Shown here: piece after piece, positions 1-37,582 of the stretch
Layout: every line of letters starts with the position of its first letter
How positions within the stretch are numbered: the first letter of the stretch is position 1
DNA from: Polytrichum commune
Taxonomy: Eukaryota; Streptophyta; Polytrichopsida; Polytrichales; Polytrichaceae
DNA length: 64,000 nt
Reading direction: 5' to 3'
NCBI GenBank assembly: GCA_950295325.1
Contig: OX485806.1
Location: 55,979,169 to 56,043,168 of the forward strand
Program-made: the position numbers and the translations under genes
Notes under the pieces: model-generated
Told to the model about the DNA's origin: nothing
What the model saw: the letters and a program-made list of their open reading frames with translations, nothing else
The model's database searches: none

Positions 1-702
1 AAAGATAATCTATGAGATTATATTTATTATGGAAATCAATTGTGAGTACGCATAAGGTCCACAAATGGCCACATCCATTAAGGCACAATGCATTACTAGG
101 CCTTGAGGAATTCTAAGAAGTAGAATCTGTCAAGAGGCCCCCCTCGAGGATGGGTTTGACCTCATTGAAGCTAAATGTCGGGGCGTGAATGAACAAGTCA
201 ACGTCAAGATCTAAATTAAAGACATTGACAAAAATGAAGTAGAGGTGCTTACAATGTAGAAATTTTTTTCGTTTGTGGCCGAATTTTGACATCATATCTT
301 TGAAGGGTGGGCAATTACACCCGGGTAGAGAACTCACTATGAGTTGGTAAACTGATTGTGTAGGTGCAGGTTTGGATTGCAATAATCACGCAACCAAATC
401 CAGGGTGTGGAATCACAGTTACCTCCAAGATGGACCGTCCATAGCTCGTGCAGAGGCGACCATCTGCATTTGTTTTGTTGATCGTGCCATGTTGGACCGT
501 CGCGTAGGCTTAGAATGCCTAGAATTAGGGTAAGAGTTTCGATTGGGTGGAATGTCCACACTGAAAAGGTCGAGTAAATGAGCAAATGCCATGCCATGCC
601 ATAAGGTCATATGAAGAGGTACATGGAAAGGCATATGGAGAGGCATATGGAGAGGTACATGTCGAGTAGATGAGCAGATGCCATGCCATGCCATAAGGTC
701 AA
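1..702. other. Left-edge intergenic stretch with a short direct repeat
   Basis: No convincing gene is seen here; open frames on the minus strand are low-complexity and match nothing I recognise. Two near-identical blocks of about 45 bp lie at roughly 571-611 and 660-704. Both contain a doubled CATGCC and the string CATAAGGTC, and they are separated by a run of CATATGGAGAGG-like units. The second block abuts the point where retroelement homology begins (about 703), so this region marks the 5' truncation point of the element to the right. Confidence 0.5.
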
Positions 703-3398: not shown

Positions 3399-3578
3399 AT
3401 GGAGTCAACAAGTCACAACTTCAGCGAGGTGACGAGCACTAGTGAAGAATCAACGGCCAGAACTAAGGTTTCAAGAGGGAAGTCCTTAAGAGCATGTGTA
3501 GCTAAGGCCGTGGGATGGACCCTTGAGGCGGCCAATGCTATACCCACTCAAGAAAATTGCATTAATAAAACATCATGA
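3399..3578 (+). CDS. Short conserved open frame inside LTR (59 aa), copy A
   Basis: An ATG at 3,399 opens a 59-codon frame ending in TGA at 3,576-3,578. Its C-terminal half, with the signature SLRACVAKAVGWTLEAANA, is closely similar to a 46-codon frame at the same LTR position in copy B (SLKACVAKAAGWTLEKANA). A remnant in the third LTR reads WSTLEKANA. The DNA between the copies differs at many sites, yet the peptide is similar. AATAAA overlaps the end of the frame, so a transcript started at the LTR TATA box could encode this peptide and terminate just after it. I recognise no protein family and give no function. It could also be chance conservation within an LTR. Confidence 0.4.
   Translation: MESTSHNFSEVTSTSEESTARTKVSRGKSLRACVAKAVGWTLEAANAIPTQENCINKTS
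3564..3569 (+). terminator. Polyadenylation signal AATAAA in LTR copy A
   Basis: AATAAA lies in the context ATTAATAAAACATCATGA, with near-identical sequence at the corresponding place of the third LTR (26,360) and a variant in copy B (16,572). It would end the R region of the element transcript. Confidence 0.55.
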
Positions 3579-3769
3579 CTTAAGAGAAGTTGGGGGTTCA
3601 TTGAGATGGGACTTATAGCTTATGTTGCTATTTTTGGTGTAACACATGCGAGTCTCAAAACCATCACCCGGACTAGGACGCTTAAGGATGGTGGGTTTGG
3701 CCTCACAAATGGCCATATTTTTATCTGAATGTTGTGAGGAATGTATGTTTAACTACATATTTCTTGTGT

Positions 3770-4160
3770 GTTGTGGTTCGGACTAGTTGTGTATGGGCTG
3801 GGATAGGACCCCCTCGGATCCGATAGGGTCATGGGGTAGGCTCATAAGGGCCAGATTTTGAGTGGAATGTGTGTGAGGCATGTATGTTTAACTAGATATT
3901 TCTTGTTTGTTTTGGTTCGACCTAGTTGTAAGTTGGCTGGAAGAGGACCCTCTCGGATCCGAGAGGGTCATTGGGTTGGCTCCTAATGGCCACATTTTGA
4001 TAGAAATGTGTGTAAGGCATATATGTTGAACTAAATATTTTTTGTATGTTGTGGATCGGCCTAGTTGTGTATAGGCTGGGATAGGACCCTCTCGGATCTG
4101 AGAGGGTCATGGGGTTGGCTCATAAGGACCAGATTTTGATTGAAATGTTGTGAGGCATGT
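3770..4160 (+). repeat. 140-bp tandem repeat with BamHI-centred palindrome, left cluster
   Basis: Three units have their palindrome centres at about 3,816, 3,955 and 4,094, a period of 139-140 bp. Each carries GACCCTCTCGGA joined to its reverse complement (24 bp, centred on GGATCC) with small changes, inside a conserved context containing GTTCGGCCTAGTTGTG, TGGGCTGGGATAGGAC and GGCCAGATTTTGA. The cluster lies immediately upstream of the first recognisable exon of pseudogene copy 1, possibly within an upstream intron. Confidence 0.9.
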
Positions 4161-5929
4161 GTGTTTAATTGTCTCGGGATATGACATTTGGATCAGATTA
4201 TGACTTCAATGTTCTCTTGCATTTGTGTAGGAATCACAATCCATGGATCTCATTCTATCGGTGGATCCCTCAATGGATGACCATAATGTTCAATTCGACG
4301 TTCCTCTGGTATGATTATAAGCCATTGCCTCCATCCTTGAGTTTTTCGTCGTATTCCAAAAATGGCCTTGCTTTCATTGTATTTTCAATAATTTTGGCAT
4401 TACCTTTGTAGAATGATGCACCAATTTCATCCAACTCTTTGCGTCCTCTTGATGAGTCGAACCCAGAGGAGACTGAGCTCTTGATTCGGAGATCGCAAAA
4501 AGAAGACTCTAATGCTGTGATTCACCGGGTTCGAATGAAACCTTTTCATAAGTCGCGTTTCTCTATCCCTTTGTGCCGCTTGCGATGTCTTCCACTTGTT
4601 CGTCCCATCAACAAGGTTGATGTCGCTCGGTTGGAAAATGAGTTCGTCATGGGTTACCGTGACGGTGACCGAGCCTTGTATGTCTCTCCCTACAACAACC
4701 TCAAAGAGGTACTCGATGTCTCCGATGACATCCACAATTCTTGGAGTTCATTATGGCAAGAGGCCAATGAGGAATTCGACGCCATGCTCCAAAATGACCC
4801 TGACCTTGAACACCTTTTTGGCAAGATGTTCAACGTGTGGGAGGGGAACCACCGTTTGTCGGCTTGGTGGAGGCACATTAATAAACATCATTCGCTGGAT
4901 AAAAATTGGCATATCCTTGTTCACTGTATTGTTGTGGATTCAAGAAATTCCACCGCCGTCTTCTTGAATGCCATGAATGACATCAATTGGTAAGTTTACG
5001 TTTCTTTCCCTTCTTTCTTTGCCTTTTTCCGGTTTCCTTTTATGTTTCATTTTTCTTTGGACCCTCATTACTTCGTCTTTTAGGTCCATGGAGCACGATC
5101 ATGTTAAGGACAACCTCCCCGCCAAATTGCTTCGCATTCGTACATTTGGAACAATGAAGCTTGAGGATTTCAAGGACCTCATTTCGGTTGACGACTACAA
5201 GATGTGCGAGGGTAAGATGGAGAAAAGTCCTACTTGGTATCCCCTCACATTGGATGTCTTCTTCAAGTTCTTGTACAAGGTAATATTTCTCCTGCCTCTA
5301 GTTTTTTCTTTCTCATGTTTTGTGCATTAATCTTTACACACATTTCTGTTTGTTTTAGAGAGAGATCTCGAATTCGGCGGATACTGCTGCACGGTTATAC
5401 TGTGAGTCCACTCCCGAGGCTCTTAGATCTGCTACTGGTATTTGGGATGCTATGACAAAAGCCCAGGATAGATTGATCAAAAGTATTCGATCTCGGAGCT
5501 TTGAGAAGTTTATCTCCGTCACCCACAAGGACAACGGCGATGACTTCTTCCAAGAGGTACTCCCTGCACCTCTACAATTTTTGTTTGTTTGTACCTTCGT
5601 ATTTTTCTACTTGTGCTTTATGTATATTTCCTTACATTACACTATTCATTTTTTCAGATTGACCGTCATTTCTCCACCTTCGTCGTCCCGGATATGACTA
5701 TTGAGAAACTACAAAAGGTGGCAACTACACATGTGGATGCTTCCTTTAAGGCTAGATGGCTTCGGTGGTGGAATTCCCCCGCCGAGGTCAAAACTAAAAA
5801 CAAGTTCCCGTCTTCTCTTCCTTTTCGCGAGAAAGCCCTCGATGACTCGTTTCACAAAGCTTCTTTTTGGGCACAGGTGCTCCCATACCTTATATTTTCT
5901 GGATTGTGATGTTGAAATAGTTTGGTGTG

Positions 5930-6045
5930 CTCTAGAGGACGACCCTCTCGGATCCGAGAGGGTCTTTTGTTGAGGGCATGAGGACCAGATTTTGCCTTAT
6001 GTGTTGGGTACTTTGTGTGTTTAGTTAGGCCAGATTTCTAACTTC
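5930..6045 (+). repeat. Single 140-bp-type palindromic unit inside an intron
   Basis: One unit with the complete 24-bp palindrome (about 5,940-5,964), followed by the conserved GAGGACCAGATTTTG context, sits in the intron between exons at 5,658-5,876 and 6,065-6,306. The intron of the second gene copy at this position (28,372-28,449) is only 78 bp and lacks it, so the unit is an insertion. Confidence 0.85.
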
Positions 6046-6996
6046 ATTTTTTTCTTCATCTTAGTTGGAGAAAGGGATTGATGATGAAATCGCCTCATTT
6101 GAAAATGAATGCTCCATCGACATCGACTGGGTTTCTACGGAAGATCTTTTGCAACCTGCTCATTTTGTCGAGCATTGGAGGCTCATTTTGTGGGACAAGG
6201 CTTTTCGAGTGTATTTTGATGACAAGGGAGTCTTGAAATTCACCAAAGGGCTCGATCTCATGGAGTTCGAGGAAGGTCCCATAGCTATCAAGCACGTTGC
6301 TTACCGGTATTCATTTTTCTTTTTCTTTTCGCCTTAATATCTTTTTTTGTTTTCGTTATTTCAACTCCATTTCTTTGTTCTCATGTTCTCTAATTGGAAG
6401 GTACATTCACCGTGAGCTTGTCGTGAAGAATGTTTTTCCTTCTTTGTCATTGCTGTCATTCCTTGACGATGGGATCGATGACAACTCAAAGCTTTGTGTG
6501 TACACTCCCATGCAACTTGTAAAATTTCCACGCGTGCATTTGGTGGCTGGTGGTTGGTACTTGGATTGCTCTCGTGGATTCGTTCCCGACATAGAAGAAC
6601 CCCTCTACGACAACCTCGCTTCCTCTGCCCCTGAGGTAATTGAATTGGAGGAAGAGCCAGAAGAAGATGAGAATCCGGCTCCTCCCACCATTGACAAGGA
6701 GGTTGCACCGGTGAAGGCCAAGGCCAAAGGCAAGAAAGTGGCCTCTCGTCAAGTCTCCACCCGCTCTTTTACCAAAGGCCTCCGTTTGGAGCACTGCAGC
6801 TCCAGCTAGCACGGTTGTGGGAAGTCCAATGGCAACTCCTTCTGCCCCTTCTCGGGATCATGTTCCCGCTCCGTCCCATAGCAGTGTCACCATTCCCTCT
6901 GTGCCGCGCAAGAGGAAGGCCATTGCTCCGGATACCTCCGCAACTTCTTCGGAGAAGTCATCTTCTCTTTTTTTGATTGAGAATGTCGACATGGGG

Positions 6997-7969
6997 TGTC
7001 GCGCACCTCTCCATGAGGAGTGCCCGAAACACCATGGGCACAAGGGGGACCCCGGAGTGACACCCGGGACTTGTGGCGCCGTTGGTGAGAGGGCCCAAGT
7101 GATCCTAGTGTGGGTGAGGGCCCCGGGCGTTGGGAACGCCTCCCACCCACGGAGACTAGGAGGCATGAGGGTAAGGCTAAGAGCTATGCGTAGCTCATGG
7201 CGTGGTGATTCTAGAATGCTCAAGAACACCTCAATCGGAGGTGCAAGCTAGGAGTTATGGCCATTTGAATGAGACGCTGTCCCGGGACAGCGCCCTGGTA
7301 CAGCAGTGCCTGGATGTGATTCCCGGGACTGCCAAGGTTCAAACAGGCATAACTTCCTCAAGACTTGCCCGAATGGGGCAAGTGAGGCATCCATCGGCAT
7401 CTACGTGAAGCGTAGATGAAGATGGAGTGGTTGATGGTTACCATCAAACATCATACAAGGAAGTTATGATGGTCTGAAGCTGCTGGGGGCTTCTAGGCCC
7501 AACAGCTAAGGGAAAGTGTCTACTTGGCCCCAACTCTTGGTGGAGAGACAAGAGGTTGGTTGACGGTGGGGTAGGGGCCCCGCGTAGAGTCCTAGAGGCT
7601 TATATGGGTGAGGTGGTGTGGCCTCACCCACCCGAGGCCGAATGGCACGGCCTCCATGGGCATTGGCCCAATGTGAGGCCATAGTTGCCTAGTATGGTTC
7701 GGGTTGTTGTAGTGTTGCTCCGGCAACGCGATGATCAACATGGGATTAGACTTCTATGGATGGAAGTCCACATCTAGGAATGAGTTACCGATTAAGGGGT
7801 GAGTCCCGAAAGCAAAGTAGGAGGGTTGGTTTCCTCCTATGAACTATATGGTCCGGGGTAGGAGGAACTAACCATTAGCATGGCGGAATGCGAATGGTTA
7901 GCGCTCGTAACCTTTGCTATAATTGAAAATTGGCAAGATTGTCAAGGGGGGCTAGCAAGGGTTGTGACA
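6997..7969 (+). mobile_element. Solo-LTR-like element (family C) inserted in an exon
   Basis: The element starts TGTCGCGCACCTCTCC and ends GGGTTGTGACA, and is flanked by a 5-bp target-site duplication TGGGG (6,992-6,996 and 7,970-7,974). The uninterrupted exon is visible in gene copy 2 near 29,362. It is 973 bp with no coding capacity. Short TG...CA ends and a 5-bp duplication fit a solo LTR. The inverted ends TGTCGC/GCGACA leave a small terminal-inverted-repeat transposon as an alternative. It contains strong hairpins, including a CCCGGG-centred palindrome near 7,280. Other copies or pieces lie at 19,218-20,155, 31,641-31,834 plus 36,678-37,460, 37,583-38,072 and 42,075-42,174. Confidence 0.85.
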
Positions 7970-9448
7970 TGGGGGACCTCATAGAGGATCTCATGGGGTC
8001 TAAAGTTCCCCCTCCCGCTTACCGCTGCATCCTAGAATTCCTCACTAAGGTATGTGCAACATTTTTTTATTTACCCGTTCTTTCATTCTAATTCAACAGT
8101 TGTTTTTTTATATTTTTCCTTGGATTTTTGCTTTCCAGGTTGGAGCGGGTCGTACTCGTCCTAATACCAAGCCTAAGGTGCACACATGGCTTGATGTATT
8201 ATTTGGAGATGTGCCTGAGAACCTCCGTGTACCGGACATCTCGTCATCACCGTCGGATGTTCCCCAATGGAACAAGCGGTCTTCGACTTACTTTGAGGTT
8301 CTGTTTGCCTTCGCAAATGCCAACCTCCATGAAGATGGCATTCTTGTCATTGTACACGCCGCTGATCCTCACGTGTCTAGATCCATACATGACTGGGCAC
8401 ATACAAAGGACTTCTACGTTGTCGAATATTTGGTTCGGCATGAATGACCTCGACCTCCAATCGCCTACTAATCCATCGGAGTTGGTAATTTCTTTCTTGC
8501 CTCATCGTTTTGTATTCTTGTCTTTTTTTCTCTTGCATTTTTGTATTCCTAATTCTACCATTTTCATGTCTTGCAGACTCGCAAGTTCTTCATCAAGGTT
8601 CTCGTACGTAATGATTCTGTTTTGAATGTCCAGACCTCGGACTTCGACGACATGGGTTAGAATCTCAAGAGAGATGGTTGGCTCAATAGCTTCGCCGATT
8701 CGAAGAACTAGTCGCTGAGGGAAAACGGGGTGCCTTAGAGAGGTGCTCGTGAAAAACGCCCCGAGTTGTTCTCCATCATTTTCTCCGCCCTCACAGACAA
8801 GGACGACATTATCATGGATTGGCAATGTGTCCTTGGTTGGCTTTTCTTTTCTTTGTTTCTCATGACTTTGTTCTTTATTCTTTTGCTTTCTTTTTTACTT
8901 GTTTCATTTTCCATTCATTACCTTATGCTCACATTCTCACATTTCGTTCTTTTAGGAGGTTCCGTCATTGCATGTCGATCCATTCAACGCCACATTGTGG
9001 CGCTTGAGTCGGATACCGACACCTTAAAGTCCATCCTCCTCCCTATACGTGAGACTGACCAAGAACATACTTTTCAGCATGCTGCCCCACAACGACGATC
9101 GGTTTTTGCTCCTCCTCCCCGGAAGATGGCGAAGCGCAATTTTGATTTGCTGTATGCGTAAGTTCGTTCTTGGCTTCTAACTTGCTTGCTTAGATTTATG
9201 TCTTCTCTATTCCGGATGTTTGTCATGTGCTCATTTTTTTGTTTTCTCGTTCTATATTTTCAAAGTCCATATTGACAACCCGATTCGTGTCCTTAATGCG
9301 GACATGTTTGCAGCCCCTTCGACGACGTTTGAGTTTCCTTCGTATGCTGCTGACATTGTCCATGTTTTGGCGGAAGCATCGTCCCCACCTCCTAGTCGAA
9401 CCCGCCCTTTCAACAAACTAATTTTGGATTTCCTAGACATAGAGGCCG

Positions 9449-10240
9449 ACAGAGTGTGTTTTTGGTTCGGCCTAATTGTGTATGGGCTGGGATAGCACCC
9501 TCTCGGATCCAAGAGGGTCATGGTCTAGGTTCAAAAGGGCCAGATTTTTGCTTTGAATGTGTGTGAGGCATGTATGTTTAAGTAGATTTTTCTTGTGTGT
9601 TGTGGTTCGGCCTAGTTGTGTGTGGGCTGGGATGGGACCTTCTCGGATCCAAGAGGGTCATGGTCTAGGCTCAAAAGGGCCAGATTTTTTATTTGAATGT
9701 GTGTGAGCCATGTATATTTATGTAAACATTTCTTGTGTGTTGTGGTTCGGCCTAGTTGTGTGTGGGCTGGGATAGGACCCTCTCAGATCCAAGAGGGTCA
9801 TAGGATTGGCTCAAAAGGGCCAGATTTTGATAGAAATGTGTGTGAGGCATGTATGTTTAACTACATATTTATTGTAAGTTGTGGTTCTGCCTAGTTGTGT
9901 ATGGGCTAGAATAGGACCCTCTTGGATCCGAGAGGGTCCTGGACTAGTTCAGCCTAGTTGGGTATGGACTAGAGAAGGACCCTCTCGGATCCGAGAGGGT
10001 CTTCATTTCAGGGCTTGAGGACCAGATTTTGAATTAAAGGTTGTTTATGTTGTATGTGTAGATAGTGTAAACTTGTGTGCACTAGTTTGGTTGATAGTGT
10101 CAGGGAGGACAAGTTGGGGTTGACGGGTTGAACCTTGTTTTTTTGGTTTCATATTTGTCACGTTAAAGGGTTGGACTATGTAGGGACCCTCTCGGTTCCG
10201 AGAGGGTCCACGGGTTGGGGGTTTGATCCAGATTTGTGCA
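9449..10240 (+). repeat. 140-bp tandem repeat with BamHI-centred palindrome, right cluster
   Basis: Units with TCTCGGATCC or close variants occur at 9,501, 9,641, 9,781 and about 9,920 (140-bp spacing), then a short-spaced unit near 9,983 and a diverged one near 10,190 (GGTTCC centre). The left border cuts into the last exon of pseudogene copy 1: the reading frame matches copy 2 up to ...FLDIEA and then runs into repeat sequence. Confidence 0.9.
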
Positions 10241-10600
10241 TGTGGCATTATAGCCATAATGTTATATATTGCATCCCAGGTCATTATGAGGTGTACTAGG
10301 TAGGATCCCCTATTTAAGTTAAGATTGAGCCCATTAATATATTGCATTAATAGCATATATCTTACCAATTATTGTCACATCCCTGTGCACCCTTTTCACA
10401 TGTGAGTGCTCCAAGCACATGCGCTCCAAGTACAATGGAAGACTTCCAAGCACAAGCATTCTGCTACTCTTTCCTGGTGAGTGTTCGGACTCTCAACTTT
10501 GTATGAGCCAAATTGTCCGCTTTCATTCAGGTGATGATCATATTTGAATTTTACAATGCTCTCACTTCCGTTAGCCTAGATGGGTAGGCGACATTCTCAA
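10241..10600. other. Spacer between the 140-bp repeat and the 80-bp satellite
   Basis: No gene is seen. The sequence is AT-rich and towards its right end begins to resemble degenerate 80-bp satellite monomers (CTCAACTT, TGATGATC), consistent with the eroded edge of the array. Confidence 0.4.
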
Positions 10601-12243
10601 CTTCGATTCATATGATGAAGTTTGTTCTTTCTTGGCTGCTCTCACATGAGAGATACTACAACCCTAAACCAGATTCTCAACTTGGATTCAGGGCTTGAAT
10701 GGTTGTGTGTTTTGGATGTTCTCAATTCTGAGAGCCTACTTGTGTGAACCAGATTCTCAACTTCGATTCAGGGCTTGAATGGTTGTGTGGTTTAGATGAT
10801 CTCAATTCCGAGAGCCTACTTGTATGAACCAGATTCTCAACTTGGATTCAGGGCTTCAATGCTTGTGTGCTTTGGATGATCCAAATCCGAGAGCCTACAT
10901 GTGTGAAGTACATTCTCAACTTGGATTCAGAGCTTAAATGGTTGTGTGCTTTGGATGATCTCAATTCCGAAGGCCTATATGTGTGAACCACATTCTCAAC
11001 TTGGATTGAGGGCTTGAATGGTTGTGTGCTTTGGATGATCTCAATTCCGAGAGCCTACGTGTGTGAACCTGATTCTCAACTTGGATTCAAGGCTTGAATG
11101 GTTGTGTGCTTTGGATGCTCTCAATTCTGAGAGCCTACATGTGTGAACCAGATTCTCAACTTGGATTCAGGGCTTGAATGGTTGTGTGCTTTGAATGCTC
11201 TCAATTCTGAGAGCCTACTTGTGTGAACCAGATTCTCAACTTGGATTCAGGTCTTGAATGGTTGTGTGCTTTGGATGATCTCAATTCCGAGAGCCTACAT
11301 GTGTAAACAACATGCTCAACTTGGATTCAGGGCTTGAATGGTTGTGTGCTTTAGATGATCTCAATTCCGAGAGCCTACTTGTGTGAACCACGTTCTCAAC
11401 TTGGATTCAGGGCTTGAATGGTTGTGTGCTTTGGATGATCTCAATTCCGAGAGCCTACATGTGTGAACGAGATTTTCAAGTTGGATTCAGGGCTTCCATG
11501 GTTGTGTGCTTTGGATTGTCTCAATTCCGAGAGCCTACTTTGTATGAACCACATTCTCAACTTGGATTCAGGGCTTGAATGGTTGTGTGCTTTGGATGAT
11601 CTCAATTCCGAGAGCTGACATGTGTGAACCATATTGTCAACTTGGATTCAGGGCTCGAATGGTTGTGTGCTTTGGATGATCTCAATTCGGAGAGCCTACA
11701 TGTGTGAACCATATTCTCAACTTGGATTCAGGGCTTGAATGGTTGTGTCCTTTGGATGATCTCAATTCCGAGAGCATTTGAACCACATTCTCAACTTGGA
11801 TTCAGGGCTTAAATGGTTGTGTGCTTAGGATGATCTTAATTCTGAGAGCCGACATGTGTGAACCACATTCTCAACTTGGATTCAGGGCTTGAATGGTTGT
11901 GTGCTTTGGATGATCTTAATTCGGAGAGCCTACATGTGTGAAGCATATTCTCAACTTGGATTCAGGGCTTGAATGGTTGTGTCCTTTGGATGATCTCAAT
12001 TCCGAGAGCCTACAAGTGTGAACCACATTCTCAACTTGGATTCAGGTCTTGAATGGTTGTGTGCTTTGGATGATCTCAATTCCGAGAGCCTACATGTGTG
12101 AACCAATTCTCAATTTGGATTCAGGGCTTCCATGTTTGTGTGCTTTGGATTGTCTCAATTCCGAGAGCCTACTTTGTGTGAACCACATTATGAACTTGGA
12201 TTCAGGGCTTGAATGGTTGTGTGCTTTGGATGATCTCAATTAG
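10600..12243 (+). repeat. 80-bp satellite array, left block
   Basis: About 20 monomers of an 80-bp unit have the consensus fragments GATTCTCAACTTGGATTCAG, GGCTTGAATGGTTGTGTGCT and GGATGATCTCAATTCCGAGA, then GCCTACxTGTGTGAACC. Each monomer carries a dyad of type GCTCTCA-N4-TGAGAGC or its CTCTC...GAGAG derivative. Open frames crossing the array are by-products of the period. The block is cut at 12,243/12,244 by a retroelement, and the array resumes at 16,718. Confidence 0.95.
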
Positions 12244-12257
12244 GATTCCAAGAGGCT

Positions 12258-14789
12258 ATGATCAAACAAATGCAAAGCCTTACCGATCAAATGTCATTGA
12301 AGATCAAAAGCCAACAACCGGGACCTCCGCCACCTATTGAGTCGGGTAGACATCTGTCGGGTTTATGGTGTGTTCAATGTGGCCAACCGGGCCACATTCG
12401 TCAATATTGTAGAGTTGGAGAAAACCGTGATCAACGGAGACACAATGGTCCACCTCTACAAAATCAACGAGGTCAAGCACCACCTCACTATGGTCAAGGG
12501 AACAATAGAGGTTACCTTCCTAGAGGTCAGGGTGGTCAAGACAATGAGAAGAAAGAGTTTCACCCGGTTTATGGGAGATGGCATGGCCAAGGTCAATGTT
12601 GGTCCGATGGACAAGGTTATGGTTGTAGTAATTGTGGGGGAAACCATCCTTCGGATGAGTGTCGTCAACCGGATAAAGTCATTAGCATGCCATATCCGGT
12701 GGCTAGTCCACAACAACAAGCGAGGGATAATATGAGAGGAGCTAGACCTCAAGGCGGACCACCTAATGAACTTAGACCACCAAATTTGTATTACGACCAT
12801 GGTAACGCGAGACAATTTTTTAACCCACCGGCGGGATTGCAAACGACGAATGGGTACATCCCCATTCAAGGTAAGCAAGGAGGTCCACAAAATCACAACA
12901 ATAGGCGTCAAGTTCCGCCTATGGATCCGGGTTCGTCTAACTCACAAGATGTTAGATTTATGGATGGTGTTGTGGATGCCAATTGTGATGACATGCTTCC
13001 TTTTCCAATGAGTATTGGAGAGGAGCAAAGTCAATGGCCTCCACACACGAATGCCATCACTTATGAATTGAGAGGTCTAGAGGGGGAAGTTATTCATGAA
13101 GTACCGGCCTTAGCGGTCACTACTAGAGCTAGAAGGGGAGATGCTCCACTAGAGGTAGGAATAGGGGATCAAGAGGAGTATTCTTCGGATGAAGGTCTTA
13201 ATATTCCCGAGTTAGACAATGTAGTTAGAGTAGCTAGGAGGGTCACCAAAGAGTTAGAAGAGGAGAATGCGATCCGCCATGATAGAGAGAGACCTAATGT
13301 AGTTCATGATTTAGAGGGTAGTGATGTAGGAGAATGGGAAGGACCGGAAGTTCCTTTGGATGAATTTGATGGTGTGGGCCATACTAAGATGGAGAAGTTG
13401 AGCGGTTATGATTTATGGGCCGACCTTAGTTCGCTCAAGGCGGACATAACCTTCGGACAACTATTAGAGATTTCACCGGTGGCGAGAAAGACACTCAAAG
13501 ATGGCATGCCGGTAAATCGGAGAGCTAGGAAGATCAAGACTAAAGTAGCCGCTAGGATTGAGTCACATGGAGGTCGGGATGTGAGAGCCATAGAGATAGA
13601 GGTTGTCATTGTGGACAAGGTAGTTCCCAATGTGTTAGTGGATGGGGGTAGTAGTTTGAACATCTTGCCGGAGCATACAATGAAGAGGTTAGGACTTGAT
13701 CTCACTGGTCCGTCACCATTGGTTATTAATATGGCGAATCAAAGTTCAACGACACCTTTGGGTATGATTAAGGATTGTAGGATAACAACCGGTGGAGAAG
13801 AATATTTGGTCACATTCCATGTGATTAAGATGCATTCTAATAAGGATACATTTCCCATATTGTTGGGTAGGCCTTGGTTGAGGATGTCGGATGCCATAGT
13901 AAATTGGGGAGGGGCGAAGCCATCCATCACGTATGGTCCTAAGGACAATAGAGTCGTAGTGTCGATTGGGTCACTAGGAAGTTGGATGAAGAAAGAATTG
14001 TATCAACCATCGGAGGACGTAGTTGATGACGAGGTGAAGGCTAACCTTGATGAGGCTTTAGTGGGAGTTGTTCAACCCGAAGGTCAAAGCAAAATTGTAA
14101 GTTCAAATTCGGGAAGCTTAGGTCCTAAGTTTTACCACCATCAAGATGATGGTGAGTACGTCGAATGGTTAAAAGAGTATCCCGAGTCGGAGTGTGATAT
14201 TCTAACAACGTCCCATCAACCTTGTTTGAGTGACGAAGAGCTTAGTTCTAGAGGAGAAGATGAATTGTCGGTAGAATCTTTTGAAGATCTTGACGAAGAA
14301 GGTTGGATTTCGGGAAAGTTAACTTTTTGGGTAGGTAATGAAGACGAGTTCGAAATTGATAAGATGGACGTGGATGGTACGCAAGACGACGAAACTATGT
14401 TGGAGGCCTCTAAGTTGGAAGAACCATTCCAATTTAATACAACATCTACGGATATCATGGTGGGGAAAGATGTCGACGACTACCCGAAGGTATCGATGGA
14501 TAATTATGAAAGTGATGACAATCAAACCCAATCGAGTGAAGAAGGCGCACATTATTTCAAAGCACCAAGTAGAGAAGGATCTTGGACATCGGAATGGTCA
14601 CGTTGCGACCCAAATACACTTTGGACGGAGATTCAGATACTATGGGTGCAAGACGGTATTCGTATCATATTGAGTTATGGACAATATCGCCATGAGCGGA
14701 CCGAAGACCATGGAGAGAACTCCTCTCTTTCACCTTTTTTGGAAAAATGGCCTAGATATCGGTCTAACCTTCAATGGTGTTTTTATTAA
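12258..14789 (+). CDS. Retrotransposon Gag-protease polyprotein fragment (copy B), 843 aa
   Basis: This is a long uninterrupted frame of an LTR retrotransposon. Residues 38-51 form a CX2CX4HX4C zinc knuckle (C38, C41, H46, C51). Residues 123-135 form a second, shorter CX2CX3HX4C knuckle (CSNCGGNHPSDEC). A Gln/Gly/Pro/Arg-rich stretch surrounds them. The retropepsin core VLVDGGSSLN lies near residue 458 and ILLGRPWL near residue 535, with an acidic C-terminal extension of roughly 250 residues. The gag capsid region expected before the first knuckle is missing: the frame opens just after the junction with satellite DNA at 12,244, so the first ATG is not the native start. No reverse transcriptase, RNase H or integrase lies between the stop and the LTR at 15,022. 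Copy A shows the same arrangement, so a gag-protease-only, non-autonomous family is likely. The intact frame suggests a younger insertion than copy A. Confidence 0.85.
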   Translation: MIKQMQSLTDQMSLKIKSQQPGPPPPIESGRHLSGLWCVQCGQPGHIRQYCRVGENRDQRRHNGPPLQNQRGQAPPHYGQGNNRGYLPRGQGGQDNEKKEFHPVYGRWHGQGQCWSDGQGYGCSNCGGNHPSDECRQPDKVISMPYPVASPQQQARDNMRGARPQGGPPNELRPPNLYYDHGNARQFFNPPAGLQTTNGYIPIQGKQGGPQNHNNRRQVPPMDPGSSNSQDVRFMDGVVDANCDDMLPFPMSIGEEQSQWPPHTNAITYELRGLEGEVIHEVPALAVTTRARRGDAPLEVGIGDQEEYSSDEGLNIPELDNVVRVARRVTKELEEENAIRHDRERPNVVHDLEGSDVGEWEGPEVPLDEFDGVGHTKMEKLSGYDLWADLSSLKADITFGQLLEISPVARKTLKDGMPVNRRARKIKTKVAARIESHGGRDVRAIEIEVVIVDKVVPNVLVDGGSSLNILPEHTMKRLGLDLTGPSPLVINMANQSSTTPLGMIKDCRITTGGEEYLVTFHVIKMHSNKDTFPILLGRPWLRMSDAIVNWGGAKPSITYGPKDNRVVVSIGSLGSWMKKELYQPSEDVVDDEVKANLDEALVGVVQPEGQSKIVSSNSGSLGPKFYHHQDDGEYVEWLKEYPESECDILTTSHQPCLSDEELSSRGEDELSVESFEDLDEEGWISGKLTFWVGNEDEFEIDKMDVDGTQDDETMLEASKLEEPFQFNTTSTDIMVGKDVDDYPKVSMDNYESDDNQTQSSEEGAHYFKAPSREGSWTSEWSRCDPNTLWTEIQILWVQDGIRIILSYGQYRHERTEDHGENSSLSPFLEKWPRYRSNLQWCFY

Positions 14790-15784
14790 TCCCAAGGAGT
14801 TACACATCACCGAGGTCCGCACAAAAGCGCATGTGGTTGGGTTACTCTCTCACTTGTAAATGAGGTGTTTTTCAACAACTCATGTTAATTAAACTTTTTT
14901 TAACGGAGAGCTCTTTACTACGCGGACCTCGGGAAGTCATTGTAAGCAATACCGGGCGTGAATTCGGCATTTACCTTCGAAGCAAACGATCTTGGATTCA
15001 CCCCCCGATGGTCGCCAATTATGTGAGCCCAAAATGGTATCCACATGTGGTAATAAACTCTTCGAAACCAATTTTAGTTTGACTTTGATGTGTTATGATT
15101 ATTCACAAAACATAAAAAGAGTGAAGTATGGTTTGGATTTAAGTTTAGGCTTTAGAATGTGTTGTGTGATTATTTCAAGGTTGAATTCAATAAGAGTATG
15201 CCTTGATATTGTGAGTAGGGGGTAAGGTGAAGCAAGGTGAGTTCCGCGGGTTAAATGCCCACTTTTGGATCCACCTTGGTAGTTTAGGAAGAAGGAAGCT
15301 TGGTGGAAGGGGATTAGTCCCTACTTTGAAGGTTAAGGTTAAGGGATTGTGATTGGAGGTGCTAATCCTCTCACCCTATCCTCACCTCTCTCCCCCTCTC
15401 TCCCTCTTTACTACTTAAGGTGTTTTTCTCTCATTTTCCCTCTCTCTCCATCAAGTGCTCTCAAGGGAGCAAGCTCTTAAGAGCTTGAGCCACGTGTGTG
15501 GGTTATTAGTTTTTAGTGAAGTGAATTAGTTAAGCTCTCTCTCAAGTCCTCTCAAGGGAGTGAGCTCGTAGAGCTTGAGGTTTTATGTGTGGAGTAGCTA
15601 GTTCTTAGTGAAGTTAGGAAGTTAACCCCCATCATAAGGAGGGAAAGTGTAGAATCCTTAGACTACACCCATGGGTGGTTGTTAGTTGGTTAAATTAGTG
15701 GCACATGTTAGTCATTAGTTAGGTGAGTAGGGGAAGGCTTGACTAGACACTAGGTTAGAAGATTGTGGTTATAATGATTATGGA

Positions 15785-16065
15785 ACATTAGCCTAGTAGC
15801 TAAAGGCTTCCCGGATTACAGTCTTCCAAGAATACAGTTGTTGGGCCACAGCTTGCCGGGACTGCAGTTGCTGGGATACAACTGCTGGCTACATATTGTT
15901 GGGACTGCAGTTGCTGGGCCACAGCTTGCCGGGACTGCAGTTGCTGGAAACGCAGCTGCTGGCTACATATTGTTGGGATACAGCTGCTGGCTACAGTTGC
16001 TGGGTTACAGCTGCCGGGACTGCAGCTGTTGGGACTGTAGCTGCTGGGGCAGTAAGGGCCCTCAA
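15785..16065 (+). repeat. GCTGGGACTGCAG-type minisatellite inside LTR copy B
   Basis: Units of about 15-17 bp such as GTTGCTGGGCCACAGC and TTGCCGGGACTGCAG occur in irregular order. The position in the LTR matches the 22-bp minisatellite of copy A. An open frame rich in Gly, Cys and Leu across it is a repeat artefact. Confidence 0.85.
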
Positions 16066-16421
16066 CTATTAAGCCGGTGAAGGAGCAGCTAAGGTGGCTG
16101 GGAGATTAGAGAAGGGTTTACTTAAGGAGGCAGATGGTCCAGCTGGGGTTAAGTTAGAATCAAAGAGCCACCATGGTGTTTAGCTAGTTAGGGAAGGGAA
16201 GGAATTGAATTAGGTGCTATAACCACCAATTGTTGGGAGTTAATGGGGCTAAGGACACTTAGCATTTAGCCCAATTTATAAACCCATAGATAGGGTGTAG
16301 TCACATTAGCCTAGGTAGGGGCATGTGTGGTTGACAGACGGTTGCATTTAGAGGCTATTACAGAGAATAGCATTTTTCAACGCTCACATCTTTTTTACCA
16401 ACTAAATCAATTACACAAGTG

Positions 16422-16562
16422 ATGGAGAAGGTCAAGGATCCTTGTCCCCAATCCACGACGGAGGTTAAGGTAAAGAGGACAAGGGGAATATCCTTGAAGG
16501 CGTGCGTGGCCAAAGCCGCGGGTTGGACTCTTGAGAAAGCCAACGCTACCACAAGCCAATAG
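16422..16562 (+). CDS. Short conserved open frame inside LTR (46 aa), copy B
   Basis: An ATG at 16,422 opens 46 codons ending in TAG at 16,560-16,562. The C-terminal half (GISLKACVAKAAGWTLEKAN) matches the copy A frame at 3,399-3,578, while the N-terminal half is more divergent. AATAAA follows 10 bp after the stop. No family is recognised. Retention of frame and peptide in diverged LTRs is the only argument that it is coding. Confidence 0.4.
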   Translation: MEKVKDPCPQSTTEVKVKRTRGISLKACVAKAAGWTLEKANATTSQ

Positions 16563-16717
16563 CCTAATGTTAATAAAGCACAATGATTCAAAGCCATATG
16601 CGCTCTCTTGAACATGAGAGTTACTTCGCACTTGTTTCAAATTTCTAGGCAACACATGTGATTCTCAAACCCATCACCCGGACTAGGACGCTTAAGGGGG
16701 GTGGTTTTGGCCTCACA

Positions 16718-19217
16718 GGTTGTGTGCCTTGAATGCTCTCAATTCTGAGAGCCTACATGTGTGAACCACATTCTCAACTTAGATTCACGGCTTGAATGGT
16801 TGTGTGCTTTGGATGATCTCAATTCCGAGAGCCTACATGTCTGAACCACATTCTCAACTTGGATTCAGGCCTTGAATGGTTGCGTGGTTTGGATGATCTC
16901 AATTCTGAGAGCCTACATGTGTGAACTAGATTCTCAACTTGGATTCAGGGCTTGAATGGTTGCGTGGTTTGGATGATCTCAATTCTGAGAGCCTACATGT
17001 GTAAACTAGATTCTCAACTTGGATTCAGGTCTTGAATTTTGTGTTTTTTTGAATGCTCTCAATTCGGAGAGCCTACTTGTGTGAACCAAATTCTCAACTT
17101 GGATTCAAGGCTTGAATGGTTGTGTGCTTTGGATGCTCTCAATTCCGAGAGCCTACTTGTGTGAATTAGATTCTCAACTTGGATTCAGAACTTGAACTTT
17201 GTGTTTTTTTGAATGCTCTCAATTCGGAGAGCCTAGTTGTGTGAGTAAGATTCTCAACTTGGATTCAAGTCTTGAATGGTTGTGTGCTTTGCATGATCTC
17301 AATTCCGAGAGCCTACATGTGTGAACCACATTCTCAACTTAGATTCAGGGCTTGAATGGTTGTGTGGTTTGGATGATCTCAATTCGGAGAGCCTAGTTGT
17401 GTGAACCACATTCTCAACTTGGATTCAGGGCTTGAATGGTTGTGTGCTTTGGATGCTCTCAATTCCGAGAGCCTACATGTGTGAACCACATTCTCAACTT
17501 GGATTCAGGGCTTGAATGGTTGTGTGCTTTGGATGATCTCTGTTCTGAGAGCCTACATGTGTGAGTCAGATTCTCAACTTGGATTCAAGGCTTGAATGGT
17601 TGTGTGCTTTGGATGATCTCAATTCGGAGACCCTACGTGTGTGAACCACATTCTCAACTTGGATTCAGGGCTTGAATGGTTGTGTGGTTTGGATGATCTC
17701 AATTCCGAGAGCCTACTTGTGTGAACTAGATTCTCAACTTGGATACAGGTCTTGAATTTTGTGTTTTTTTGGATGCTCTGAATACTGAAAGCCTACTTGT
17801 ATGAACCAGATTCTGAACTTGGATTCAAGTCTTGAATGGTTGTGTGCTTTGGATGATCTCAATTCCGAGAGCCTATTTGTGTGAACTAGATTCTCAACTT
17901 GGATTCAGGTCTTGAATTTTGTGTTTTTTTGGGATGCTCTCAATTCTAAGAGCCTACTTGTGTGAACTAGATTCTCAACTTGGATTGAGGGCTTGAATGG
18001 TTGCATGGTTTGGATGATCTCAATTCTGAGAACCTACATGTGTGAACTACATTCTCAACTAGGATTCAGGTATTGAATTTTGTGTTTTTTTGGATGCTCT
18101 CAATTCTGAGAGCCTACATGTGTGAACCAGATTCTCAACTTGGATTCAGGGCTTGAATGGTTGCGTGGTTTGTATGATCTCAATTCTGAGAGCGTATATG
18201 TGTGAACCATATTCTTAACTTGGATTCAGGTCTTGAATTTTGTGTTTTTTTGGATGCTCTCAATTCTGAGAGCCTACGTGTGTGAACCAGATTCCCAACT
18301 TGGATTCAGGGCTTGAATGGTTGTGTGGTTTGGATGATCTCAATTTTGAGAGCCTACTTGTGTGAATTAGATTCTCAACTTGGATTCAGGTCTTGAATTT
18401 TGTGTTTTTTTGGATGCTCTCAATTCCGAGAGCCTACTTGTGTGAACCTGATTCTCAACTTGGATTCAGGGCTTGAATGGTTGCGTGGTTTGGATGTCCT
18501 CAATTCCGAGAGCCTACTTGTGTGAACCAGATTCTCAACTTGGATTCAGGTCTTGAATGGTTGTGTGTGTCGGATGCTCTCAATTCCGAGAGCCTACATG
18601 TGTGAGTCAGATTCTCAACTTAGATTCACGGTTTGAATGGTTGTGTGCTTTGGATGATCTCAATTCGGAGACCCTACATGTGTGAACCACATTCTCAACT
18701 TGGATTCAGGGCTTGAATGGTTGTGTGCTTTGGATGATCTGAATTCCGAAAGCCTACTTGTGTGAACCAGATTCTCAACTTGGATTCAGGTCTTGAATTT
18801 TGTGTTTTTTTGGATGCTCTCAATTCCGAGAGCGTACATGTGTGAGTCTGATTCTCAACTTGGATTCAGGGCTTGAATGGTTGTGTGCTTTGGATGATCT
18901 CAATTCGGAGACCCTACATGTGTGAACCACGTTCTCAACTTGGATTCAGGGCTTGAATGGTTGTGTGCTTTGGATGATCTCAATTCCGAGAGCCTACTTG
19001 TGTGAACCAGATTCTCAACTTGGATTCAGGTCTTGAATTTTGTGTTTTTTTGGATGCTCTCAATTCCGAGAGCCTACATGTGTGAGTCAGATTCTCAACT
19101 TGGATTCAAGTCTTGAATGGTTGTGTGCTTTGGATGATCTCAATTCGGAGACCCTACATGTGTGAACCACATTCTCAACTTGGATTCAGGGCTTGAATTT
19201 TGTGTTTTTTTGGATGT
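16718..19217 (+). repeat. 80-bp satellite array, middle block
   Basis: About 31 monomers. Two variants alternate, one with GGTTGTGTGCTTTGGATGAT and one with TTTGTGTTTTTTTGGATGCT, in partial 240-bp (three-monomer) higher-order units towards the right. The perfect dyad GCTCTCA-ATTC-TGAGAGC is visible at 16,735-16,752. The block ends where the reversed family C element begins. Confidence 0.95.
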
Positions 19218-20155
19218 TGTCGCAACCCTTGCTAGTTTTCCTTTACTTAGCTTGACCGCCTTTCCAACCTAGCAAGTGCCACGAGCGCTAACCTGCACAT
19301 CCCACGCACATGCATGGTTAGCTCCCAAAACCGCGGACCTTCAAGCTCATGGCTAGGTCACCAAACCCTCCTACACATGCATTCGGGACTCTTCCCTTAG
19401 TAGGTAGCCAATGGCTAAGGTGGACTTCCATCCATGGAAGTCCACTCTTGAGTTGATCATCGTGTTGCCAAAACAACACGACAACTACCCGGAGCACATT
19501 GCCAAGTATGCTCCGGGGGGGTCGGTCGGCTAAGCCGCCTCACCCATATAAGCCTCTAGGACTTTGGGCGGGGCCCCTACCCCACCATCAAGTATCCTTT
19601 TTGTCTCTCTACAAGGATTGGGGCCAAGTGGACATTTTCCCTTAGCCGCTGGGGCTGGAACCCCCCAGCAGCTTCAGACCACCATAACTTCTACATATGA
19701 TGTCTGATGCTATTGAGCGACCACTCTATCGTCACCTACTCTTTGCGTAGATGCCGATGGACCCCTCACTTGCCTCATTCGGGCAAGTATTGAGGAAGTT
19801 ATGGCTCTTCAAACCTTGGCAGTCCCGGGCACCACTCCCAGGTCACTGCTGTCCCAGTGTGTTGTCCCGGGACAGCGCCCCACTCAAATGGCCATATCTC
19901 CTAGCTAGCACCTCCGATTGAGGTGCTCCTTAGCATTCTAGAATTCCACCACCATAAGCTACTCATAACTTATGGCCTTACCCTCATGACTCCTAGTCCG
20001 CGTGGGTGAGAGGCGTCCTCAACGCCCGGGGCCCTCACCCATGCTAAGAGTACTTGGGCCCTCTCACCAATGGCGCCACAAGTCCCGGGTGTCACTCCAG
20101 GGTCCCCCTTGTGCCCATGGTGTTGCGGGCACTCCTCATGGAGAGGTGCGCGACA
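19218..20155 (-). mobile_element. Solo-LTR-like family C element, reversed, in satellite DNA
   Basis: Read on the minus strand it starts TGTCGCGCACCTCTCC and ends GGGTTGCGACA, 938 bp. Flanks are GATGT (19,213-19,217) and GATGC (20,156-20,160), an imperfect 5-bp target-site duplication inside the satellite motif GGATGCTCTC. This copy is noticeably diverged from the one at 6,997. It has no coding capacity; the open frame starting at 20,070 runs out of it into satellite. Confidence 0.85.
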
Positions 20156-23100
20156 GATGCTCTCAATTCTGAGAGCCTACATGTGTGAACCTCTCAACTT
20201 GGATTCAAGGCTTCAATGGTTGTGTGGTTTGGATGATCTCAATTCTGAGAGCCTACTTGTGTGAATTAGATTCTCAACTTGGATTCAGGTCTTGAATTGT
20301 TGCGTGGTTTGGATGATCTCAATTCTGAGCGCCTACATGTGTGAACTAGATTCTCAACTTGGATTCAGGTCTTGAATTTTGTGTTTTTCTGGATGCTCTC
20401 AATTCAGAGAGCCTACATGTGTGAGTCAGATTCTCAACTTGGATTCAAGTCTTGATTGGTTGTGTGCTTCGGATGGTCTCAATTCCGAGAGCCTACTTGT
20501 GTGAACTAGATTCTCAACTTGGATACATGTATTGAATTTCGTGTTTTTTTGGATGCTCTCAATTCTGAGAGCCTACTTGTGTGAACCAGATTCTCAACTT
20601 GGATTCAGGCCTTGAATGGTTGCGTGGTTTGGATGATCTCAATTCCGATAGCCTACTTGTGTGAACCAAATTCTCAACTTGGATTCAGGGCTTGAATGGT
20701 TGTGTGCTTTGGATGATATCAATACCGAGAGCCTACATGTGTGAACCAGATTCTCAACTTGGATTCAGGGCTTGAATGGTTGTGTGCTTTGGATGATCTC
20801 AATTTCGAGAGCCTACTTGTGTGAACTAGATTCTCAACTTGGATTCAAGTCTTGAATGGTTGTGTGCTTTGGATGATCTCAATTCCGATAGCCTACTTGT
20901 GTGAACCAAATTCTCAACTTGGATTCAGGGCTTGAATGGTTGTGTGCTTTGGATGATATCAATACCGAGAGCCTACATGTGTGAACCAGATTCTCAACTT
21001 GGATTCAGGGTTTGAATGGTTGTGTGCTTTGGATGATCTCAATTCCAATAGCCTACTTGTGTGAACCAAATTCTCAACTTGGATTCAGGGCTTGAATGGT
21101 TGTGTGCTTTGGATGATCTCAAATCCGAGAGCCTACTTGTGTGAACTAGATTCTCATCTTGGATACAGGTCTTGAATTTTGTGTTTTCTTGGATGCTCTC
21201 AATTCGGAGAGCCTACATGTGTGAACCAGATTCTCAACTTGGATTCAGGGCTTGAATGGTTGTGTGGTTGTGTGGTTTGGATGATCTCAATTCCGAGAGC
21301 CTACTTGTGTGAACCAGAATCTCAACTTGGATTCAAGTCTTGAATGGTTGTGTGCTTTGGATGATCTCAATTCTGAGAGCCTACTGGTGTGAACCTGATT
21401 CTCAACTTGCATTCGGGACTTGAATGGTTGCGTGGTTTGGATGATCTCAAATCCGAGAGCCTACTTGTGTGAACTAGATTCTCATCTTGGATACAGGTCT
21501 TGAATTTTGTGTTTTCTTGGATGCTCTCAATTCGGAGAGCCTACATGTGTGAACCAGATTCTCAACTTGGATTCAGGGCTTGAATGGTTGTGTGGTTGTG
21601 TGGTTTGGATGATCTCAATTCCGAGAGCCTACTTGTGTGAACCAGAATCTCAACTTGGATTCAAGTCTTGAATGGTTGTGTGCTTTGGATGATCTCAATT
21701 CTGAGAGCCTACTGGTGTGAACCTGATTCTCAACTTGCATTCGGGACTTGAATGGTTGCGTGGTTTGGATGCTCTCAATTCCGAGAGCCTACTTGTGTGA
21801 ACTAGATTCTCAACTTGGATTCAAGTCTTGAATGGTTGTGTGCTTTGGATGATCTCAATTCCGAGAGCCTACTTGTGTGAACTAGATTCTCAACTTGGAT
21901 TCAAGTCTTGAATGGTTGTGTGCTTTGGATGATCTCAATTCCGATAGCCTACTTGTGTGAACCAAATTCTCAACTTGGATTCAGGGCTTGAATGGTTGTG
22001 TGCTTTGGATGATATCAATACCGAGAGCCTACATGTGTGAACCAGATTCTCAACTTGGATTCAGGGCTTGAATGGTTGTGTGCTTTGGATGATCTCAATT
22101 CCGAGAGCCTACTTGTGTGAACTAGATTCTCAACTTGGATTCAAGTCTTGAATGGTTGTGTGCTTTGGATGATCTCAATTCCGATAGCCTACTTGTGTGA
22201 ACCAAATTCTCAACTTGGATTCAGGGCTTGAATGGTTGTGTGCTTTGGATGATATCAATACCGAGAGCCTACATGTGTGAACCAGATTCTCAACTTGGAT
22301 TCAGGGCTTGAATGGTTGTGTGCTTTGGATGATCTCAATTCCAATAGCCTACTTGTGTGAACCAAATTCTCAACTTGGATTCAGGGCTTGAATGGTTGTG
22401 TGCTTTGGATGATATCCATACCGAGAGCCTACATGTGTGAACCAGATTCTCAACTTGGATTCAGGGCTTGAATGGGTGTGTGTTTTGGATGATCTCAATT
22501 CTGAGAGCCTACATGTGTGAGTCAAATTTTCAACTTGGATTCAGGTCTTGAATGGTTGTGTGTTTCGGATGCTCTCAATTCCGAGAGCCTACATGTGTGA
22601 GTCAGATATTCAACTTGGATTCAAGTCTTGAATGGTTGTGTGCTTTGGATGATCTCAATTCCGATAGCCTACTTGTGTGAACTAGATTCTCAACTCCGAT
22701 TCAGGTGTTGAATGGTTGTGTGTTTGGGATGCTCTCAATTCCTAGAGCCACCTTGTGTGAACCAGATTCTCAACTTCGATTCAGGTGTTGAATGGTTGTG
22801 TGTTTGGGATGCTCTCAATTCCGAGAGCCTACATGTCTGAACTAAATTTTCAACTGGGATACAATTGTTGAATTTTTTGTTTTTTTGGATGCTCTCAATT
22901 CCGAGAGTCTACTTGTGTGAACTAGATTCTCAACTTGGATTCAGGGCTTGAATGGTTGTGGGCTTTAGATGATCTCAATTCCGAGAGTCTACTTGTGTGA
23001 ACCACGTTCTCAACTTGGATTCAAATCTTCAATGGTTGTGTATTTCGGATGCTCTCAATTCCGAGAGCCTACTTGTGTGAACCAGATTCTCAACTCCGAT

Positions 23101-31640: not shown

Positions 31641-31834
31641 TGTCGCGCACCTCTCCATGAGGAATGCCCAAAACACCATGGGCACAATGGGGACCCCGGA
31701 GTGACACTCGGAACTTGTGGCGCCGTTGGTGAGAGGGCCCAAGTGATCCTAGTGTGGGCGAGGCCCCCGAGCGTTAAGAACGCTTCCCACCCACGGAGAC
31801 TAGGAGGCACGAGGGTAAGGCCATATGCTATGCG
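31641..31834 (+). mobile_element. Family C element, left piece split by a nested insertion
   Basis: It starts TGTCGCGCACCTCTCC as in the copy at 6,997 and stops after GCTATGCG. The remainder of the element resumes at 36,678. Left 194 bp plus right 778 bp (excluding the 5-bp duplication) gives 972 bp, matching the 973 bp of the intact copy. Confidence 0.9.
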
Positions 31835-37460: not shown

Positions 37461-37582
37461 TCATCAAGTGTAGGAAGCCCAAGGGAAAAGATGAACAAAA
37501 AAAAATTACAAAGGAATACTTGGGGAAATGGTGAGAATACCATGATATAGAAGCCACTTGGGTAGCAACAAGAGACATGATG

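Follow-up and report, generated by a model that had tools for sequence, protein, structure and literature searches.

A decayed ParB-like and methylase-like accessory gene from a large two-gene DNA transposon of Polytrichum commune, and the palindrome arrays around it

Why a plant nuclear genome should carry a gene, split by introns, that joins a ParB-like stretch to a part resembling the beta-class amino-methyltransferases is the question raised by a locus of Polytrichum commune. The locus lies in a stretch of 64,000 nucleotides, here called the window, which corresponds to positions 55979169-56043168 of contig C4 (OX485806.1) in the 408-Mb genome. GRAS-domain matches, of which this genome has 70 and each of 14 control genomes none, indicate a streptophyte, most likely a land plant, and 29 matches to 5S rRNA do not place the host by themselves. 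At 4243-9450 the window holds a decayed copy (copy 1) of the accessory gene from a large plant DNA transposon with two genes. The features by which such an element is recognised, namely terminal inverted repeats, a target duplication and a linked transposase, were all found, the transposase being named by eye. The accessory gene is under constraint, and the middle part of its product is conserved together with the two ends. The explanation favoured here, with slightly better than even confidence, is that the product, consisting of a ParB-like part and an altered methylase part, would act as a self-recognition factor for long palindromes that lie in arrays around the gene.

Copy 1 has 11 exons, of which exons 2-11 were defined by alignment with other genomic copies and exon 1 by eye, and the multi-exon plant gene proposed in a first-pass annotation of these letters is thereby borne out. 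The exons and the insert that interrupts one of them are as follows.

4243-4308, forward strand: exon 1, placed by eye, with GT directly after
4412-4990, forward strand: exon 2, the ParB-like stretch including GNHR, open, within the 4412-4993 frame
5085-5279, forward strand: exon 3, open
5359-5556, forward strand: exon 4, open
5658-5876, forward strand: exon 5, open
6065-6307, forward strand: exon 6, open
6402-8049, forward strand: exon 7, with a frame change near 6730-6790, interrupted by an insert of about 970 bp
6997-7965, no strand assigned: the repeat insert of about 970 bp in exon 7, a later arrival, with GACATGGGG at both borders
8139-8478, forward strand: exon 8, from the motif IV region (DVPEN) onward, with a frame change near 8427-8430
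8577-8837, forward strand: exon 9, reaching motif X and the first part of motif I, with three stops
8958-9158, forward strand: exon 10, the remainder of motif I and beyond
9283-9450, forward strand: exon 11, matched part

The peptides quoted in the first-pass annotation are all in frame in copy 1, namely VWEGNHRLSAWWRHI (4412-4993), LFGDVPEN with ANANLHEDGILVIVHA (in the frame ending at 8447), MDWQCVLG (8577-8837) and GSVIAC...ALESD (8958-9158), and the forms given for a second copy (NWQCGVG, GFVIAC) were likewise recovered. That annotation had also spoken of lesions, and both copies of the window are indeed broken. In copy 1 the reading frame changes in exon 7 and again in exon 8, exon 9 contains three stops, and exon 7 is split by the insert of about 970 bp, which is missing from copy 2 and probably entered with a 9-bp duplication. 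Copy 2 shares 72-74% nucleotide identity with copy 1 and is more decayed, with nine stops within the matched stretches plus frame changes.

27017-30809, forward strand: copy 2, as the matched stretches of exons 2-11, with motif IV as SVPEN and motif I as NWQCGVG

The young copies elsewhere in the genome reveal the element to which the gene belongs. Three subfamilies were distinguished, S1 (that of the window), S2 (about 63% amino acid identity in exon 2) and S3 (about 60%). The S2 copies on contigs C2, C3 and C4 are 98.3-99.7% identical in long stretches and 97% identical in parts of their arrays, and those on C2 and C3, for the most part 98-99.5% identical, have the same two end points, which delimit elements of 16.2 and 16.7 kb. 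Their ends are inverted (GGGGACGACACTTGTATGTGAGCG... and GGGAAACTCAAGTATGTGAG..., or more fully GGGGACGACACTTGTATGTGAGCGTAGAGCGGAG and GGGAAACTCAAGTATGTGAG[C/T]GTAGAGCGGAG), and a similar end, GGGACGACACTTGTATGTAAGCG, is present at the S1b locus (C7, 39.39 Mb). Both of the elements examined at both ends are flanked by 8-bp target duplications, CTCGGGTG for the C3 element and AGAAACTC for the C2 element. The C3 element is inserted within a copy of the same repeat of about 970 bp, and the repeat in the window is uninterrupted at the corresponding point, with CTCGGGTG present once, which makes it an empty site. The near-identical 16-kb units, the inverted ends, the 8-bp duplications and the empty site thus indicate that the young copies are mobile. 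Directly next to the C2 element is a reading frame (L003, reverse orientation, 8594-9652) which we take to be a CACTA-like transposase.

The second gene of the element lies on the opposite strand, 5' to 5' with the accessory gene, and consists of two or more exons (as read, 709 and 487 residues). Its protein displays, by eye, the patterns D...D...CxxH and CxC...CxH (SWIM-like), which resemble MULE motifs, and it is presumably a MULE-like transposase. The 8-bp target duplication of both elements falls within the range of 8-11 bp given for MULEs in PMC6446971. With regard to the pairing of the two genes, a divergent upstream partner was found within 20 kb of 74 of the 150 exon-2 matches, whereas 500 random placements averaged 0.6 and never exceeded 4, and the remaining orientations gave 0, 0 and 2, although this pairing may miss partners. 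Matches are numerous for exon 2 (at least 150, 150 having been scored of 1,280 candidates; the best outside the window has E = 9e-120), for exon 8 (at least 150, scored of 970 candidates) and for a 254-residue part of the partner (at least 149, scored of 1,666 candidates, with 11 tied for the top score), all of these counts being lower bounds. A remnant of the partner persists beside copy 1, which identifies the latter as part of a decayed element.

116-574, reverse strand: remnant of the transposase-like gene, pointing away from copy 1 and comprising the C-terminal exon that bears the SWIM-like region

This remnant matches residues 334-487 of the second exon of the partner (tblastn E = 1e-42, 55% amino acid identity), and the interval 1-477 of the window shares 73-74% nucleotide identity with the young elements. 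As a separate observation, 53 of the 150 scored exon-2 matches are on C4, 48 of them above 41 Mb, a region that may be heterochromatic or sex-linked.

Substitution rates show the accessory gene to be under constraint. The ratio of nonsynonymous to synonymous rates (dN/dS, Nei-Gojobori, stop codons and gapped positions skipped) was computed for eight pairs of copies, of which four were informative, three had saturated dS in parts and one was too close. The informative pairs, two copies of which contain stops, gave 0.06-0.18 for the ParB part, the middle part and the methylase part. For the whole gene the informative pairs gave 0.11-0.19.

With regard to the methylase half, a profile of exons 8-10 built from five copies and searched against the PDB found DpnA (5hfj, 5hek) at E = 8e-4 across motifs X and I and CcrM at E = 1.2; in the latter alignment idllfadvpenlp is placed under VDLIFADPPYNLQ of CcrM, a part that contributes only 1.3 bits. 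Methyltransferase families of PHROGs were also matched, one of them by five of five members (best 9.5e-6), and one S3 copy compared with phage methylases by tblastn reached E 2e-5, with Enterococcus phage 9184. In a profile-profile comparison with phage ParB-methylase proteins this half scored 47, compared with 15±3 (maximum 26) for 60 column-shuffles, a weak null as shuffling columns destroys all local sequence. Single sequences of the methylase part had no match in Pfam. Together the matches obtained support, at the level of sequence, the view that the methylase part is a relative of the beta-class amino-methyltransferases, with motif IV placed before motifs X and I, as the first-pass annotation had suggested.

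That annotation had also doubted catalysis on account of a degenerate motif IV, and the alteration goes beyond the window. Motif IV reads DVPE and SVPE in the window; all ten copies read elsewhere in the genome have D-[I/V]-P-[E/D]-N (seven without a stop in the matched exons, four being near copies of one another), and the motif lacks the second P and the aromatic residue of (D/N/S)-P-P-(Y/F/W). A lesion private to the window copy is ruled out, since the same alteration occurs in all ten other copies and in a distant relative. In the same ten copies motif I is always CG[V/T/L]G followed by G, so that the expected conservation of CGxGG residues holds for the plant's copies and fails in the relative, which reads ASTGAS across a splice and has thereby lost the first glycine. 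The methylase part is constrained and probably non-standard. The conserved loss of the usual catalytic motif suggests that a methylase fold can be maintained by selection in a transposon for a non-standard role, most likely one in which the part would bind DNA or S-adenosylmethionine without ordinary N6-adenine or N4-cytosine methylation.

The relative was encountered in a scan of a prokaryote genome collection, where two of 56 pattern stretches (L017 and L018, both from a 'Synechococcales' metagenome-assembled genome) encode a protein with 31 and 34% identity over the methylase part. The L017 gene has introns, one of them at the same place inside motif I, and its exon 2 shares 31-32% identity and retains GNHR (YIWDGNHRHFAW); motif IV reads DVPE in both contigs (DVPED in L017). 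As these contigs hold intron-bearing copies of the gene, the assembled genome probably includes eukaryotic DNA, and L017 and L018 are most likely eukaryotic contamination of it.

The ParB-like half is so called at the level of motifs only, a label helped by the published pairing of ParB-like and methylase parts in algal transposons. The order IPLCR...VR...L..EFV.GYR.G..YV...W.GNHR..AW in exon 2 resembles that of ParB, with extra residues before the strand that bears GNHR. GNHR itself is invariant in 7 of 7 and 5 of 5 alignment rows, the latter including L017, and in 12 of 12 copies, so that this part of the earlier claim of a ParB-like N-terminus stands, and the profile and database searches gave it no support.

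What distinguishes the element further is the presence of palindrome arrays around the gene. The palindromes extend up to 22-30 bp, with arms that vary by subfamily and a core, CGGATCCG, common to most. The arrays of the window are the following.

3807-4108, no strand assigned: upstream palindrome array of GACCCTCTCGGATCCGAGAGGGTC-type sites at 3807 (two mismatches), 3946 (perfect) and 4085 (one mismatch)
5941-5964, no strand assigned: palindrome GACCCTCTCGGATCCGAGAGGGTC, perfect over 24 bp, within intron 5 of copy 1
9496-10208, no strand assigned: downstream palindrome array, with sites at 9496, 9636, 9776, 9915, 9978 (perfect) and 10185

The upstream array sits in a 139-bp tandem repeat (3711-4168) and the downstream one mostly within a 140-bp tandem repeat; in total, ten GACCCTCTCGGATCCGAGAGGGTC sites with at most four mismatches were counted in the window, three of them perfect (3946, 5941, 9978). 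The S2 elements contain 27, 32 and 47 exact CTCGGATCCGAG cores, mostly inside GAGGCCTCGGATCCGAGGCCTC, and the latter is perfect over 22 bp at 25 of 29 sites on C2 and 44 of 50 on C4, figures in which identity is inflated by the selection of palindromes by similarity, as in the counts of sites perfect over 24 bp given below. The S1 copy C7_10 carries 24 sites of GACCCTCTCGGAACCGAGAGGGTC, symmetric except at the centre, and an S3 element carries seven CAATCCCACGGATCCGTGGGATTG-like sites, with perfect symmetry across 12 to 30 bp, and across at least 22 in four of the seven. When units were instead picked by a flanking anchor, which selects by the flank, the palindromes of five arrays were 0.94-1.00 identical and their neighbours 0.58-0.81, although the c2, c3 and c4 arrays in this comparison are near copies and not independent, which tells against giving it full weight.

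At the genome level, CTCGGATCCGAG occurs exactly at 3,285 sites compared with 9 for the reversed word, the S3-type word CCCACGGATCCGTGGG at 88 compared with 0 for its control, and CCTCTCGGAACCGAGAGG at 735 forward and 895 reverse sites compared with 0. Among the 50 listed of the 88 S3-type sites, 41 have one of the ten matched S3 exons 2 no more than 10 kb away. Outside the plant, the exon-2 frame of L017 is preceded, at a distance of about 200 bp, by AATTGGGTCTCGGATCCGAGACCCAATT, a palindrome that is perfect over 28 bp and has the 12-bp core in common, and a further, imperfect copy lies about 110 bp ahead of that one. The candidate sites stand out as long palindromes with subfamily-specific arms, present in thousands of copies, and as having the same core beside a distant relative. 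As in the VANC/VANDAL system, family-specific motif arrays are found in the element's own noncoding DNA.

The closest published counterpart is Sola1-1_Ec32 of Ectocarpus, in which a gene with a ParB-like part and an N4C/N6A methyltransferase part lies opposite the transposase (PMC12477816). The same source cites green and red algal relatives (Iyer 2011, Petroll 2025) and puts forward the idea that a transposon encoding such a protein is bound and modified by it, with no site named in the portion available. Both systems unite the two domains in one protein, in a large DNA transposon and on the strand opposite the transposase. The Polytrichum element differs in its plant host, in a transposase-like gene without a Pfam match, in motif IV (D-[I/V]-P-[E/D]) and in the palindrome arrays, the word palindrome being absent from the available text of PMC12477816; the algal proteins are set apart here by their description. 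ParB-methylase genes of transposons are thus already published for algae, and the palindrome arrays are the new and testable part. Since the candidate sites stand out, the proposal made for the algae that these proteins bind their own transposon becomes directly testable by a binding assay. Among the titles and abstracts listed in searches of one open-access library there was no ParB-methylase transposon of a land plant, nor palindrome arrays with one.

A second counterpart is VANC of the Arabidopsis VANDAL elements (PMC5735166). Like the protein considered here, it is an accessory product of a transposon; its short motifs occur in tandem repeats, both ahead of the element's genes and within their introns, and differ from one related family to the next. 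It differs in that no methylase or ParB-like part is described in the available text, which gives YAGTATTAY as the VANC21 motif and never uses the word palindrome. A further parallel is provided by the TET/JBP genes in fungal transposons (PMC12730594). In a survey of proteins with the ParB fold, fusions to methylases are noted for phages, and the words 'plant' and 'transpos' are absent from the portion available (PMC12704722). The phage ParB-methylase fusions compared here also have a ParB-like part followed by a beta-class methylase, and the methylase parts align. They differ in motif IV (of eight proteins, five have DPPY, one DFPY and one DPIY, and one, L031, lacks a methylase part), in being shorter (292-491 residues as read) and in ParB parts that do not align above shuffles. 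DpnA and CcrM share the alignable stretch of motifs X and I and the order of motif IV before motif I, but DPPY is replaced in the plant element's protein, the activity of which is putative. In addition, two small contigs of the assembly, C12 (at 28.8-30.3 kb) and C23 (at 8.6-10.2 kb), labelled L024 and L023, bear ParB genes of bacterial or phage type, one of them a ParB-methylase fusion with DPPY, and are probable assembly contamination.

Other accounts of the gene itself can be weighed against its being an accessory gene of a transposon. An 11-exon structure and strong constraint would suit a multicopy host gene family, but that account is barely credible, as an isolated host family is ruled out by the terminal repeats, the target duplications, the empty site and the coupling to a transposase-like gene, and near-identical 16-kb units are found on different chromosomes. 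A viral insertion was likewise rejected: two scans of viral contigs gave no relative among 75 pattern stretches for the methylase profile and 52 for the exon-2 profile, and terminal repeats and a transposase-like gene were found instead. It is also quite unlikely that the protein still catalyses N6-adenine or N4-cytosine methylation of the element, the role proposed for the algal genes, perhaps at GGATCC/GATC of the palindrome core. The beta-class order and profile match, the constraint on the domain and the presence of GGATCC in the palindromes of the window, S2, S3 and L017 would all fit such an enzyme. Nevertheless, the second P and the aromatic residue of motif IV are gone in all ten copies outside the window and in the relative, all 24 sites found in the S1 copy C7_10 have GGAACC at the centre, and the relative's motif I is without its first glycine.

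With regard to what the arrays are for, they could be binding sites of the element's transposase, unrelated to the ParB-methylase-like protein, which is a serious contender that we consider unlikely. Repeated binding motifs of transposases are known in other superfamilies, and the S2 and S3 arrays lie between the two divergent genes, so that location cannot separate the two proteins. By location alone the transposase is almost as good a candidate binder, a point that weakens the self-recognition reading. Against the transposase stand the position of the S2 sites far from the element ends (9802-14732 in the C3 element, which spans 3464-20129), the S1 sites in an intron and downstream of the ParB-methylase-like gene and the palindrome just upstream of this gene in the relative. 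The chances seem slimmer still that the palindromes are by-products, that is, tandem repeats linked to hairpin formation or silencing that repeat turnover keeps uniform and to which no dedicated protein belongs. They do lie in tandem repeats of a kind that homogenise themselves, and one copy has half-sites only, but within anchor-picked units the palindrome exceeds its neighbours in conservation, and its centre is common to subfamilies and to a distant relative while the arms differ symmetrically.

The reading as a self-recognition factor has to be set against a number of further findings that do not favour it. In the palindromes, these are the perfection over 24 bp of only three of the ten window sites and three of the eight S3 sites, the 60-unit array with half-sites only at the S1b locus, the GGAACC centres of C7_10, the 9 of 50 listed S3-type sites with no S3 exon 2 inside 10 kb and the ability of repeat arrays to homogenise by themselves. 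In the gene, exon 7 is less constrained (dN/dS 0.27-0.34), the closest pair has a dN/dS of 0.40 on few changes (dN 0.006), and 3 of the 10 other copies read contain stops. Exon 2 has no ParB match in Pfam, NCBIfam, PHROGs or the PDB, the family searches returning nothing or chance-level matches to other families (YdjC 0.13, Utp9 0.3), and its profile scored 11.0 against eight phage ParB parts, below the shuffles at 12.3±2.6; the profile comparison called for by the first-pass annotation therefore succeeded for the methylase part and failed for the ParB part. The structure prediction also called for was made for exon 2 with AlphaFold2, and yielded a model with a predicted local distance difference test score of 33 from an alignment of two rows only. 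As for the partner, no Pfam transposase family, a MULE model included, matched it at E<=10, for which reason 'MULE-like transposase' is a tentative reading; its one Pfam match, FERM_M at 0.008, was below the cut-off, and a PDB search gave no informative match.

By analogy we infer self-recognition of the palindromes by the accessory protein, for which VANC offers the closest working model and ParB at parS the mechanical analogue. The protein would bind the arrays in the element's intergenic, intron and downstream DNA, probably as a dimer, might then cluster or spread there as ParB does at parS, and could keep the element expressed or mark it, as VANC does for VANDAL. A more specific proposal, offered tentatively and with appreciable doubt, is that of a partition-like system, in which a ParB-like clamp fused to a repurposed methylase would load onto subfamily-specific, parS-like arrays and so mark or de-silence the transposon's own copies. 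If this were true, protein and sites would co-diverge between subfamilies, and the system would be a eukaryotic counterpart of ParB-parS that has converged on the VANC-VANDAL strategy.

The window contains further repeats. The repeat of about 970 bp, which may be a solo terminal repeat, has no obvious gene, is common nearby and occurs several times in the S1b locus; in the window, stretches related to it are found at 19218-20155, 31641-31835 and 36678-38072. An 80-bp satellite (TTCTCAACTTGGATTCAGGGCTTGAATGG...) lies between copies 1 and 2 at 10667-12241 (about 20 units) and 16718-25600 (about 110 units), and more tandem arrays are present at 58500-61639 and 61757-62272, with units of 71 bp and 46 bp.

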